DNA from: Apilactobacillus timberlakei
GTDB lineage: Bacteria; Bacillota; Bacilli; Lactobacillales; Lactobacillaceae
Direction of reading: 5' to 3'
Assembly: GCF_002993965.1 (NCBI RefSeq)
Contig: NZ_POST01000002.1
Span: forward strand, 159,783-206,397
DNA length: 46,615 nucleotides
Shown here one piece after another: positions 42,449 to 45,623 of the stretch. The notes under the pieces were generated by a model. The model ran no database searches and was not told the DNA's origin. It saw nothing but the letters and a program-made list of their open reading frames with translations. A program made the translations under genes and the position numbers. Position 1 is the stretch's first letter. The number at the start of each line of letters is the position of its first letter.

Positions 42449-42477
42449 TTGACTTATGCATTTATTTAAAGTATTAT
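42449..42477 (+). promoter_or_regulatory. promoter of the Cys-leader/oppA unit
   Basis: TTGACT, a 17-bp spacer and TATTAT: the best sigma-A match in this part of the window. It is 40 bp before the small leader reading frame and the only good promoter before the peptide-binding gene. The TATAAT at 42722-42727 has no -35 and would start transcription inside the ribosome binding site of oppA. Confidence 0.75.
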
Positions 42478-42516
42478 TCATGATAATAAATTATACGAAA
42501 GGAGGACTATCACATT

Positions 42517-42600
42517 ATGAAACGTTTATTTAATAACCAATGTAAATGTTGTTGTATTTTAAATGTTAGCACTAATGTGGTAGCCCTTTTTAGCATGTAA
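42517..42600 (+). CDS. 27-codon Cys-rich leader peptide
   Basis: A small frame with a near-perfect ribosome binding site (AAAGGAGG, 42498-42505). The product is 27 residues and contains QCKCCCIL at positions 8-15: codons 9, 11, 12 and 13 are all TGT. Four of five consecutive codons for Cys is very unlikely by chance in such AT-rich DNA. The last part of the frame (42564-42581) can pair with the 5' arm of the terminator that follows. I interpret it as an attenuator leader peptide whose translation senses charged tRNA-Cys. An alternative is the remnant of a lipoprotein signal sequence: one frame over, the end reads FLAC, but that frame has a TAG just before. Confidence 0.65.
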   Translation: MKRLFNNQCKCCCILNVSTNVVALFSM

Positions 42601-42656
42601 TGTTTTATCTTATATAGAATGAATTAGTACATATAATTTTTAACTTACATAACTAG

Positions 42657-42711
42657 AGCCACTAGATATTAGGCTAGCATTTTTTGTTAGCGCTTATCTA
42701 GTGGCTTTTTT
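42657..42711 (+). terminator. attenuator terminator before oppA
   Basis: The outer stem of 12 bp is perfect (AGCCACTAGATA 42657-42668 with TATCTAGTGGCT 42695-42706). An inner stem follows: GCTAGCA 42673-42679 with TGTTAGC 42685-42691, loop TTTTT. A T-run completes it. It terminates the leader transcript 37 bp before the oppA start. The competing antiterminator uses 42564-42570 with 42673-42679 (7 bp), 42572-42576 with 42668-42672 (5 bp) and 42577-42581 with 42658-42662 (5 bp). Confidence 0.85.
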
Positions 42712-42747
42712 GTTTGATTTATATAATATTTTAGAGGAGTGAAAGGT

Positions 42748-44376
42748 ATGAATTTTTATAAAGCATTATTATCTTCTGCATTATTAATAACTGCTGGGGG
42801 TGTTTTGACTGCTTGTGGTAACAATGAAACAAGTAAAAGTAAGTCACAAACTCTAAACTTATCAGCTAATAGTCGTTTAGATACTATTGATATATCTAAA
42901 TCTGGTGGGTATGGATCAACCGGTAATGTATATGAAAGTTTTTATCGCTTGGGAGAAAAAGGGGCAATTACTCCAGGACTTGCTTCTAAAGGTTATAGCA
43001 GTAGGGATGGTAAAACATGGACTTTTAAAATAAGAAGCGCTAAATTTAGTAATGGCGATCCAATTACTGCAAATGATTTTGTATATTCTTGGCGTCGTAC
43101 AGTTAATCCTAAAACAAAGGCTCAATATTCTTATTTATTTAATGCTGTTAAAAATGGCCAACAAATTAATGCTGGTAATATGAGTCCTAATAAATTAGGC
43201 ATTAAATCAATAGATAAACATACAGTACAAATTAATTTGAACAAACCAGTTGCTTACTTTAAAACACTGATGGCATATCCATTATTTGGTCCACAAAGTA
43301 AAAAGACTGTACAAAAGTATGGAAGCAAGTATGGTACTAATTCAAAATACATGGTCTATTCTGGTCCATTTAAAATCGTTAATTGGAATGGAGTAGGTGA
43401 TAAGTGGTCATATGTAAAGAATAACAACTATTGGGATAAGAAGGCTGTAAAATTAAATAGAATTAATTATAGCTTTGTTAGTGATAGTACAACTAGTTTA
43501 AATTTGTATAATCAAGGGCTACTAGATGTGACCCCATTAGCTACTGATCAATTACAGAACTATAGAAATGATAATACAATGAAAGACTACTCTTATTCAA
43601 TGATTTCTTACTTAAGGTATAATTTTAATAGTCAAAATAAAGCATTGCATAATAAAAATATTCGCCGTGCTATATCATTATCAATTGATAGGTCATTATT
43701 ATCACAAAAGGTATTGTATTTAAAAGGTTCATCTGAGGTTACAGGTTTTGTTCCTAAGGGCTTAGCATACAGTCCAATTAATAAAAAAGATTTTTCAGAG
43801 CAACAATCAGTCAATAATACATTAAATTACAATCCCAAATTAGCCAAAGCTTTATTTAAGAAAGGGCTAAAAGAGTTGGGGATGAATAGTGTATCTATTA
43901 ATTTATCAAATAGTAATGATAACAATAATTCAAACGTTGCTGCTCAATACTTAAAAGAACAATTAGAAAGTAATCTTAAAGGGATGAAGGTTCAATTAAC
44001 CAGTTTGCCGGCAAAAATTTATACACAAAATGAACAAGATGGAAAATTTGATGTGGGCTTAGACACATGGGGCGGTGACTTTAATGATCCAATTACCTTC
44101 CTTCAAATTCCACAAAAAGGAACACCTTATAATTATGGAAAATATGAAAATAATAAATATGATAATTTAATTAATAAAGCAGAAAATGAAGATGCTAACA
44201 ATCAGGGAAAACGTTGGGATGATTTAATTGATGCTAGTAAAGAATTAAGCAAAGATCAGGGTGTAACACCATTATTTCAAAATAGCGCTTATTATCTACA
44301 AAAAAATAACATTCACGGAATCATCCATAATACTGCAGGAACTCAATGGAATTATAAATATGCTTATATAGGTTAA
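42748..44376 (+). CDS. oligopeptide ABC transporter substrate-binding lipoprotein
   Basis: Family 5 solute-binding protein (OppA/DppA type) of 542 residues that captures peptides outside the membrane. A signal peptide with lipobox LTAC puts the lipidated Cys at residue 23. The SBP_bac_5 core is clear: PGLASKGYSSRDGKTWTFKIR, FSNGDPITANDFVYSWRRTVNP, NIRRAISLSIDRSLL and DVGLDTWGGDFNDP. The ATG at 42748 has AGAGGAG upstream; a GTG at 42739 overlaps it. No permease or ATPase genes are nearby, so it must share an Opp/Dpp system encoded elsewhere. The ligand cannot be read; the Cys-rich leader upstream suggests Cys-containing peptides or glutathione, as an inference. Confidence 0.93.
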   Translation: MNFYKALLSSALLITAGGVLTACGNNETSKSKSQTLNLSANSRLDTIDISKSGGYGSTGNVYESFYRLGEKGAITPGLASKGYSSRDGKTWTFKIRSAKFSNGDPITANDFVYSWRRTVNPKTKAQYSYLFNAVKNGQQINAGNMSPNKLGIKSIDKHTVQINLNKPVAYFKTLMAYPLFGPQSKKTVQKYGSKYGTNSKYMVYSGPFKIVNWNGVGDKWSYVKNNNYWDKKAVKLNRINYSFVSDSTTSLNLYNQGLLDVTPLATDQLQNYRNDNTMKDYSYSMISYLRYNFNSQNKALHNKNIRRAISLSIDRSLLSQKVLYLKGSSEVTGFVPKGLAYSPINKKDFSEQQSVNNTLNYNPKLAKALFKKGLKELGMNSVSINLSNSNDNNNSNVAAQYLKEQLESNLKGMKVQLTSLPAKIYTQNEQDGKFDVGLDTWGGDFNDPITFLQIPQKGTPYNYGKYENNKYDNLINKAENEDANNQGKRWDDLIDASKELSKDQGVTPLFQNSAYYLQKNNIHGIIHNTAGTQWNYKYAYIG

Positions 44377-44460: not shown

Positions 44461-45087
44461 ATGAAATTACAATTAGCAATTGACTTAGAAGATATTGATG
44501 GTGCAATGAACTTAATTGAAAAAACCAAAGACAGTGTGGATGTATTTGAATACGGAACTCCTTTAGTAATTAACTTTGGTTTAGAAGGCCTAAAGAAGAT
44601 TAGAGATAGATTCCCGGATATTACATTATTAGCTGATGCTAAAATTATGGATGTTGCTTCATATGAAGTAAGTCAAGCATTCAAATATGGTGCTGATATA
44701 ACAACTATTTTAGGTGTGGCTGAAGATCAATCCATCAAGGATGCAATTAAGACAACTCATGAAATGGGCAAAGAATTACTTGTAGATATGATTGGTGTTC
44801 AAGATATCGCTAAACGTGCTCAAGAACTAGATAAAATGGGCGCTGATTATATCGGTACTCATACTGGTTATGATTTACAAGCACTGGGTAAAACCCCATT
44901 TGAAGACTTACACACCATTAAAGAAAATGTTAAAGAAACTAAAACAGCTGTTGCGGGTGGAATTAAGGTCAATACAGCAGAAAAAATCATTAACGAACAA
45001 CCTGATTTATTGATTGTTGGTGGTGGTATTTCTACAGTTGATGATCCTGCTAAAGCTGCTAAAGAAATTAAGGCAATGATGAAATAA
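44461..45087 (+). CDS. hxlA: 3-hexulose-6-phosphate synthase
   Basis: Aldol condensation of formaldehyde with ribulose 5-phosphate (reversible). Orotidine-decarboxylase superfamily TIM barrel of 208 residues: LQLAIDLEDIDGAMNLIEKT, DVFEYGTPLVINFGLEGL, LLADAKIMDVASYEVSQAF (the DxKxxD catalytic motif) and VAGGIKVNT. The gene overlaps hxlB by 1 bp (TAATG). It differs from the paralogous KGPDC/UlaD enzymes by its partner: an SIS-domain isomerase follows directly. Formaldehyde detoxification, or ribose-phosphate supply by the reverse reaction, are both possible here. Confidence 0.9.
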   Translation: MKLQLAIDLEDIDGAMNLIEKTKDSVDVFEYGTPLVINFGLEGLKKIRDRFPDITLLADAKIMDVASYEVSQAFKYGADITTILGVAEDQSIKDAIKTTHEMGKELLVDMIGVQDIAKRAQELDKMGADYIGTHTGYDLQALGKTPFEDLHTIKENVKETKTAVAGGIKVNTAEKIINEQPDLLIVGGGISTVDDPAKAAKEIKAMMK

Positions 45088-45623
45088 TGAATTATTTGGA
45101 AAATATTTTAGCAGAATTATCTAATTCTGCTAAAAATATAGATAATCAAAATATTTCTAATGAAATTATTAAAAGTAATCAAATATTCACTCATGGTTTG
45201 GGCCGCTCAGGCTTAGTTTTAAAAATGTTTGCGATGAGATTGGCTCAATTAGGCCACAATAGCAACGTTGTTGGTGAAACAACCACAAAATCAATTCATA
45301 AAGATGATTTGTTGATTTTGGCATCTGGTTCAGGCAATACAGCACAAGTTAAAATTGTTGCTCAAGAAGCTAAAAAAGTTGGTGCTAATGTCATTTTAAT
45401 TACATCAAATGAAGATTCTGAAATTGGTAATATTGCTGACTATGTTGTTAATATTCAAAGTAAATCTAAATATGAAAATGATGATTCAATAACTATTCAA
45501 CCAATGGGATCATTATTTGAACAAACTTTAATGTTATATTTAGATTCAGTTGTCTTACAATTAATGAATGAAGAAAATATAAATGAATCTGATATGATGA
45601 ATAATCATGCAAATTTAGAATAG
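45087..45623 (+). CDS. hxlB: 6-phospho-3-hexuloisomerase
   Basis: Isomerises 3-hexulose 6-phosphate and fructose 6-phosphate, joining HxlA to glycolysis. A 178-residue SIS-domain protein: HGLGRSGLVLKMFAMRLAQLGHNSNVVGETTTKSIHKDDLLILASGSGNTAQVK is the sugar-phosphate-binding core, with IQPMGSLFEQTLMLYLDSVVL near the C-terminus. The ATG overlaps the hxlA stop, so translation is coupled. A perfect hairpin terminator follows, just before dif. Confidence 0.9.
   Translation: MNYLENILAELSNSAKNIDNQNISNEIIKSNQIFTHGLGRSGLVLKMFAMRLAQLGHNSNVVGETTTKSIHKDDLLILASGSGNTAQVKIVAQEAKKVGANVILITSNEDSEIGNIADYVVNIQSKSKYENDDSITIQPMGSLFEQTLMLYLDSVVLQLMNEENINESDMMNNHANLE

Follow-up and report, generated by a model that had tools for sequence, protein, structure and literature searches.

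A predicted cysteine-specific, ribosome-mediated attenuator upstream of an oppA-type gene in Apilactobacillus timberlakei and its counterparts in other Lactobacillaceae

The leader region of oppA

The window analyzed here is a stretch of 46,615 nucleotides from Apilactobacillus timberlakei (contig NZ_POST01000002.1), which contains an oppA-type gene for a peptide-binding lipoprotein, preceded by a leader region where a short open reading frame (ORF) with a run of cysteine codons is followed by an intrinsic terminator. A previous examination of the letters without database searches (the sequence-only reading) had interpreted this region as a cysteine attenuator. The comparative data described below (conservation of the leader, of three helices and of the terminators) support this interpretation, and in our opinion the region is very probably a ribosome-mediated, cysteine-specific transcription attenuator. 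The features of the locus, in window coordinates, are as follows:

42449..42477, + strand: promoter-like site TTGACT-17-TATTAT (promoter scan, 10 of 12 consensus positions)
42498..42505, + strand: Shine-Dalgarno (SD) sequence AAAGGAGG of the leader ORF, part of the conserved helix 1:2
42499..42519, + strand: segment 1, the stretch from the SD to the start codon, which pairs with segment 2 in a sequestering/protector hairpin (minimum-energy fold, cofold, covariation)
42517..42600, + strand: leader peptide ORF MKRLFNNQCKCCCILNVSTNVVALFSM, 27 codons (ATG at 42517, stop codon TAA at 42598-42600)
42541..42555, + strand: putative control codons Cys9, Lys10, Cys11-12-13 (Cys codons at 42541-42543 and 42547-42555)
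42564..42591, + strand: segment 2, the antiterminator/anti-SD stretch, partner of segment 1 or segment 3 (folding, covariation, ribosome-placement folds)
42655..42679, + strand: segment 3, the terminator 5' arm (folding, covariation)
42655..42711, + strand: intrinsic terminator, segments 3:4 with the T-run (fold -31 kcal/mol; 9 pairs changed on both sides)
42748..44376, + strand: controlled gene, OppA-type peptide-binding lipoprotein (SBP_bac_5; Pfam PF00496, E 2e-79)

The SD and the 27-codon frame with Cys at codons 9, 11, 12 and 13 are present as the sequence-only reading had described them. Cysteine is a rare residue in this DNA (63 of 11,422 residues, 0.55%, across 30 window genes), and at this rate at least four Cys in five codons would occur with p = 5e-9 per site, or about 1e-7 for a run within a single ORF of the leader's length. 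No such run exists inside the 30 genes, and the leader is the sole SD-led short ORF with at least three Cys in six codons on both strands of the whole window. The promoter claimed upstream of the leader was recovered as well, and the scan revealed no further plus-strand promoter-like site between 42477 and the oppA start; since promoter-like sites are not rarer in the window than expected by chance (4 found versus 6.4 expected), this match taken alone is weak evidence. A TTGAC(T/A) -35 element and a -10-like hexamer are visible by eye at the equivalent position in the relatives. The predicted lipoprotein is 95% identical to the OppA of A. micheneri, and no opp permease or ATPase gene could be recognized by eye among the listed ORFs of the window. 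The Rfam scan of the window returned no match at the gathering score, hence no T-box at that score, and a blastn search with the leader against plasmids matched nothing.

Three mutually exclusive pairings

The terminator predicted just 5' of oppA proved to be a hairpin (42655-42708, -31 kcal/mol) followed by T's, which ends at 42711 and leaves 36 nt up to the oppA start codon ATG at 42748. It is missing from the list produced by a simple terminator scan, presumably because its stem is interrupted. The pairing proposed in the sequence-only reading between the leader segment from about 42564 and the terminator 5' arm was reproduced with -20 kcal/mol, and the onset of this segment (segment 2) lies 8 nt downstream of the last Cys codon. 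To that reading, which had only the terminator-arm pairing, we add a second helix: 42570-42591 is likewise complementary to 42499-42519, the SD/start region (-22.5 kcal/mol in the cofold), and the minimum-energy fold of 42480-42715 comprises this hairpin 1:2 and the terminator. Because segment 2 has two partners, the SD/start region and the terminator arm, the leader exhibits the 1:2 / 2:3 / 3:4 layout, like that of the trp-type attenuators, except that segment 1 is here the ribosome site of the leader itself.

Occurrence of the cysteine leader

When named genomes were scanned with the OppA alignment, at least 477 relatives were confirmed; the best 80 loci were kept and searched for an SD (at least 4 nt) followed by an ORF of 6-60 codons with at least three Cys in six codons, no more than 480 nt upstream of the gene. 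Such a leader was found in 43 of the 51 loci of the orthologous clade and in none of the 29 paralogues (27 of them with the full 480 nt upstream; 45 nt for L114 and 333 nt for L120), which bears out the conservation of the Cys codons among orthologues, a check proposed in the sequence-only reading. In the controls, none of the 80 reverse strands had such a leader, and 16 of the 1600 Markov-sampled sequences did. The 51/29 split follows an identity limit of 47% chosen after a first look at the loci, and is supported independently by the protein tree (computed by a quick method for 94 rows and rooted at the midpoint merely for display, L205 and the broken gene L129 left out), where the window shares one side of a branch with 50 of the 51 loci (51 rows, the window with L056-L105), this branch having been given a Shimodaira-Hasegawa-like approximate likelihood ratio test (SH-aLRT) value of 100.

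The leader-bearing loci belong to ten named genera (Apilactobacillus, Lentilactobacillus, Lactobacillus, Ligilactobacillus, Furfurilactobacillus, Levilactobacillus, Lapidilactobacillus, Lacticaseibacillus, Pediococcus and Secundilactobacillus) and, beyond these, to 'Lactobacillus sp. Sy-1'. A scan of 80 genomes of the order, limited to matches up to E 1e-110, added one orthologue (L209, 58% identical) with the leader MCKTVTNAICCSKCLVLVRADRGFSED, and none of the 26 other loci with a full upstream region carries a leader (L227, with only 117 nt upstream, is not among these 26). Judging from their translations, the leader peptides, e.g. MQMSAAKMMCCSMCQAQVSADRGFFGKRFILERQTVG, MLLARQLQCQNCQCCCTNNIYLSCSNV, MMLANVRHNQMTVTACCECNMTICVGLNRDFQANQ, MSLKQFCCCQNCLSTKSMTMVNNVC and MLMQCCC, share only cysteine, which is their commonest residue (13.7% over the 43 leaders) and is encoded by 128 TGT and 49 TGC codons, with both codons used in 27 of the 43. 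The spacing of Cys is variable (CxCCC, CCC, CxCC, CCxxC, CCxC, CCCC) and the flanking residues are not conserved between genera.

A strict DNA pattern matched only the genome of the window and one sister among 397 genomes of the family. The covariance model of the SD hairpin matched 19 of the 397, namely 12 genomes of the genus, two genera beyond it (L049, L050) and another five matches with E 4.6e-4 to 0.0099; no leader was seen by eye at four of these five (L051, L053, L054, L055), and the remaining match, L052, is 42 bases. In one of the further genera (G196, L050) the R1-model leader precedes another substrate-binding protein, 40% identical to that of the window.

A leader of this kind also accompanies a second oppA lineage. 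For all 63 other OppA-family matches in the Apilactobacillus genomes about 510 nt upstream were read, and a poly-Cys leader was found upstream of 8 of them, in eight genomes; seven are of the type MKMFNEEQMCCCQYRSMNSILIF and one is MKFNNVYEINECCCQIPNGELYSFI, and each has an SD hairpin and a terminator in its fold. Six of these eight genes were placed in the tree, far from the clade of the window. Taking both lineages together, 15 of the 16 genomes of the genus possess at least one such gene, if a broken one (see below) is counted. Upstream of other oppA paralogues of the genus a regular expression alone detected T-box-like core motifs (L144, L171, L173, L175, L184, L187, L189), L171 belonging to the window's own genome. 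Five loci (L149, L153, L155, L159, L162) carry a conserved SD-led ORF of 11 codons with tandem Cys, MITAVCCSVSK, about 400-415 nt upstream of another oppA paralogue.

The eight leader-negative orthologues are heterogeneous. Four (L073, L075, L078, L099) possess a T-box (E 5e-17 to 1e-11, under the Rfam gathering score of 93); L082 and L097 have weaker Cys clusters, below the limit applied; L081, with 314 nt upstream near a contig end, shows a group II intron match; L101 has neither leader nor T-box. That the four T-boxes read cysteine was considered and rejected, as the aligned specifier position is AUG in all four, which by our reading, based on the general T-box layout, assigns it to methionine. 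From this specifier the gene seems to serve sulfur amino-acid supply, with methionine apparently sensed at these four loci. Two of them carry a similar small SD-led ORF between the T-box and oppA (L073 about 2364-2445, L075 about 2309-2390), M(S/T)R(V/I)R(Y/F)HKI..WL..WRGSSRG.., and small Cys-containing ORFs occupy the corresponding place in L103 and L093, past their terminators.

Conservation of the helices

An intact oppA orthologue (at least 59% identity) is present in 11 of the 16 Apilactobacillus genomes and one more is broken by stops. All 12 loci have the poly-Cys leader, and all 12 leaders are able to form helix 1:2 (-19 to -28 kcal/mol), helix 2:3 (-19 to -23 kcal/mol) and helix 3:4 (-28 to -38 kcal/mol). 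Covariation is good for 1:2, where 96.5% of the cells are paired, with 3 two-sided pair changes (7 of 500 shuffles as high) and a covariation score reached by 0 of 500 shuffles, and for 3:4, with 92.5% of the cells paired, 9 two-sided pairs (1 of 500) and again 0 of 500 for the score. In the A. quenuiae leader the codons past the Cys run specify a different peptide and the complementarity between the SD and segment 2 is rebuilt using other bases, which argues that the RNA pairing, not the peptide tail, has been kept. In Levilactobacillus all three helices form in each of 11 of the 12 loci (L085, with a rearranged terminator region, was left out of this alignment and counted in the leader, shuffle, ribosome and terminator tests), and helix 1:2 exhibits 5 two-sided changes (0 of 500 shuffles). 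Of the two leader helices, 1:2 thus has better covariation than 2:3, with compensatory changes in two genera.

Two further observations concern the genus. In A. quenuiae (L017 / L129) oppA is interrupted by several stops and the poly-Cys leader, SD hairpin and terminator are apparently intact, which suggests a recent loss of the gene. In the A. kunkeei group (L010-L016) the stretch after the Cys codons (TGTCAAACTATC in L010 and L011) is complementary to a downstream GATAGTTTGACA; the two may form an additional helix, one that would be blocked by a ribosome sitting on the Cys codons.

Across genera, helix shuffles and full-length folds with a placed ribosome were carried out for 45 loci, including L082, which is not in the tests on 44 loci. 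For the terminators that separate the Cys run from the gene the median energy is -29 kcal/mol, compared to -10 for shuffles, and 41 of 44 are stronger than all 20 shuffles (exceptions: L074, L076, L085). Pairing of the SD region with the post-Cys stretch beats 95% of shuffles in 34 of 45 loci. With a ribosome on the Cys codons, the mean pairing of the terminator arm with the leader is 0.66, compared to 0.44 with a shuffled post-Cys leader (p 6e-9 over 44 loci, treated as independent though many are related), and in 44 of 45 loci it exceeds the value for a ribosome at the stop codon, which is partly a matter of geometry.

Cysteine supply and gene neighborhood

A gene of the PALP family (CysK, CBS) was not found in the genome of the window (97.5% complete) by a search that was positive in all 14 control genomes, and matches to CysE in this genome stay below the cut-off. 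A. kunkeei MP2 is described as auxotrophic for methionine or cysteine (PMC4841242). The cell that harbors the window seems unable to make cysteine. The downstream ORFs of 14 orthologues, inspected by eye and not by a family-library search, revealed no partner recurring between genera that would indicate a sulfur operon; two Lentilactobacillus loci share a dehydrogenase-like downstream neighbor. In the window, oppA is followed after 84 nt by hxlA and hxlB (44461-45623), encoding 3-hexulose-6-phosphate synthase and 6-phospho-3-hexuloisomerase, the ribulose-monophosphate formaldehyde pathway pair, here in a lactobacillus.

Proposed mechanism and its alternatives

We propose that transcription would start near 42484, as the promoter-like site suggests, and that a ribosome would load at 42498-42505 and translate the leader. 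When Cys-tRNA is scarce, the ribosome would stall on codons 9-13 with its footprint ending at about the start of segment 2, so that segment 2 would be free for the 2:3 pairing and RNA polymerase would enter oppA; the extra OppA would then import Cys-containing peptides. When Cys-tRNA is plentiful, the ribosome would reach the stop codon at 42600 and cover much of segment 2, and the terminator 3:4 would form. If no ribosome has loaded, or after its release, segment 2 may fold on the leader's SD and start codon, and this helix 1:2 would block new initiation, keep segment 2 from segment 3 and favor termination. Translation of the leader, stalling, the transcriptional response to cysteine, the timing of folding and the substrate of OppA are all predictions of this model.

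Several observations weigh against it. Four orthologues have a T-box instead of the leader and one has neither, and the terminator seems to be lost in L085. Helix 2:3 is the weak member of the three, with 91.4% of its cells paired (71 of 500 shuffles as high) and 2 two-sided pairs (36 of 500) in Apilactobacillus and 2 two-sided pairs (395 of 500) in Levilactobacillus, and locus by locus the terminator arm beats shuffles in its pairing with the post-Cys stretch in only 11 of 45. Even for helix 1:2 the number of pair types is not above shuffles (500 of 500 as high in Apilactobacillus, 272 of 500 in Levilactobacillus). The gain in pairing from the ribosome-free to the stalled state exceeds that of shuffles by only a modest margin (0.30 versus 0.20, p 0.006); it reaches significance in 6 of the 44 loci when each is tested by itself, and for 6 of 7 loci of Apilactobacillus it is close to zero or negative. 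The ribosome-free pairing is itself above shuffles (0.36 versus 0.25, p 0.03). Wherever the ribosome is placed, full-length folds almost always favor the terminator; L070 and L097, when the ribosome is stalled, are the exceptions. Attenuation of this kind also needs a ribosome close to the RNA polymerase, which is doubted for Bacillus subtilis. The ribosome-free pairing and the small gain on stalling imply that helix 1:2 does not shield segment 2 at equilibrium, and therefore the switch would have to be kinetic; likewise, as the full-length RNA favors the terminator, the decision would probably fall during transcription, as it does in trp attenuation. The leader-terminator pairing, whose conservation the sequence-only reading had proposed as a check, is therefore conserved in the ability to form it (12 of 12 leaders in Apilactobacillus, 11 of 11 in Levilactobacillus) and less so in its covariation; of the two alternative stems, compensatory changes are evident in the terminator 3:4, while the antiterminator 2:3 shows few.

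The same terminator and antiterminator could be governed not by Cys-tRNA but by the Cys-rich nascent chain, which would set the stalling by metal, thiol or redox sensing or as an arrest peptide. Clustered cysteines could bind metal or become oxidized, and a conserved Cys run would be expected here too. However, arrest peptides need defined residues, and the leaders have freely varying Cys spacing and no flanks conserved between genera; moreover, the controlled gene is one for peptide uptake, in a genome with no detected CysK/CBS homologue. We regard this explanation as improbable. Slightly less credible still is that the small ORF acts chiefly on translation or on the stability of the mRNA, through its SD-sequestering hairpin, with a constitutive terminator and fixed readthrough into oppA. 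The better support for the SD:segment 2 helix than for 2:3 (34 versus 11 of 45 loci beat shuffles, and the covariation) would agree with it, but the sequestered SD is that of the leader and not of oppA, segment 2 shows more pairing with the terminator arm than is seen for shuffled leaders, and in 41 of 44 loci the leader is separated from the gene by a terminator that outdoes each of its 20 shuffles. A chance ORF before an ordinary terminator can practically be dismissed: short ORFs are common in AT-rich intergenic DNA, but the run has p of about 1e-7 in one such ORF and its conservation in ten named genera and 'Lactobacillus sp. Sy-1' refutes this origin.

Beyond the cysteine attenuator of the window, we lean, with much more reserve, towards a family-wide class in Lactobacillaceae, in which the antiterminator doubles as an anti-SD, which serves at least two distant oppA lineages and which Liquorilactobacillus and one Lacticaseibacillus have exchanged for a T-box that reads methionine; within such a class an unused leader would shut itself and its gene. 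If this is true, transcription and translation in lactobacilli would be coupled closely enough for attenuation of the classical kind, a coupling that the leader makes directly testable. The leader also suggests a substrate class, Cys-containing peptides, for a previously generic OppA, and could be used to report cysteine shortage in lactobacilli associated with food or bees.

Comparison with known systems

Ribosome-mediated attenuators of the trp/his/thr type are known from Proteobacteria. Like them, the leader described here is rich in the regulated amino acid and has a 1:2 protector, a 2:3 antiterminator and a 3:4 terminator; it differs in that the amino acid is cysteine, segment 1 is the leader's own SD and start codon, the gene encodes a peptide-binding protein rather than belonging to a biosynthetic operon, and the hosts are Lactobacillaceae. 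Compared feature by feature, it has an SD-led short ORF, presumably translated, with clustered codons for the regulated amino acid, an intrinsic terminator between this ORF and the gene, an antiterminator between a leader segment and the terminator 5' arm (with weak covariation and 11 of 45 loci above shuffles singly), helices 1:2 and 2:3 that exclude each other (the shielding of segment 2 is not borne out by equilibrium folding), and control codons placed so that a stalled ribosome would free segment 2.

Polycysteine leaderless short ORFs of mycobacteria are reportedly the subject of a paper by Canestrari et al. 2020, to go by its title. The window's leader was considered as a member of that class and rejected, since it has an SD and an intrinsic terminator. 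The cys-operon leaders of Seliverstov et al. 2005 lack a conserved terminator hairpin (PMC1262725). In both, as in the window, a short upstream ORF contains Cys runs and is believed to respond to cysteine supply; the difference lies in the SD, intrinsic terminator and antiterminator found here and in the control of peptide uptake instead of cysteine biosynthesis. The uORFC-8-2 motif upstream of cysS in Rhodobacterales, for which ribosome-mediated attenuation was proposed (PMC8632094), also has tandem Cys codons in an upstream ORF and then an intrinsic terminator; it belongs to another phylum and gene, has two Cys codons, and the accessible part of its description includes no SD-sequestering helix. 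Other attenuators in lactobacilli, among them an ABC-leader and a methionine-transporter T-box, are reported in PMC2965389. The novelty claimed in the sequence-only reading for a poly-Cys attenuator on an OppA-type gene of lactobacilli agrees with a literature search, subscription papers being largely outside it, in which no cysteine leader of Lactobacillaceae was described among the matches listed.

T-box leaders of Firmicutes (RF00230) resemble the proposed attenuator in antitermination on low charged tRNA, and four orthologues carry one. They bind uncharged tRNA directly, without translation. As a T-box riboswitch (stem I with a specifier, antiterminator core GGTGGNACC) the window's leader was considered and rejected, since it has no Rfam match at the gathering score. 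Amino-acid supply in Firmicutes is usually sensed by T-boxes, and therefore a leader-peptide attenuator for a single amino acid, conserved in ten named genera of one family of this phylum, would be unexpected.

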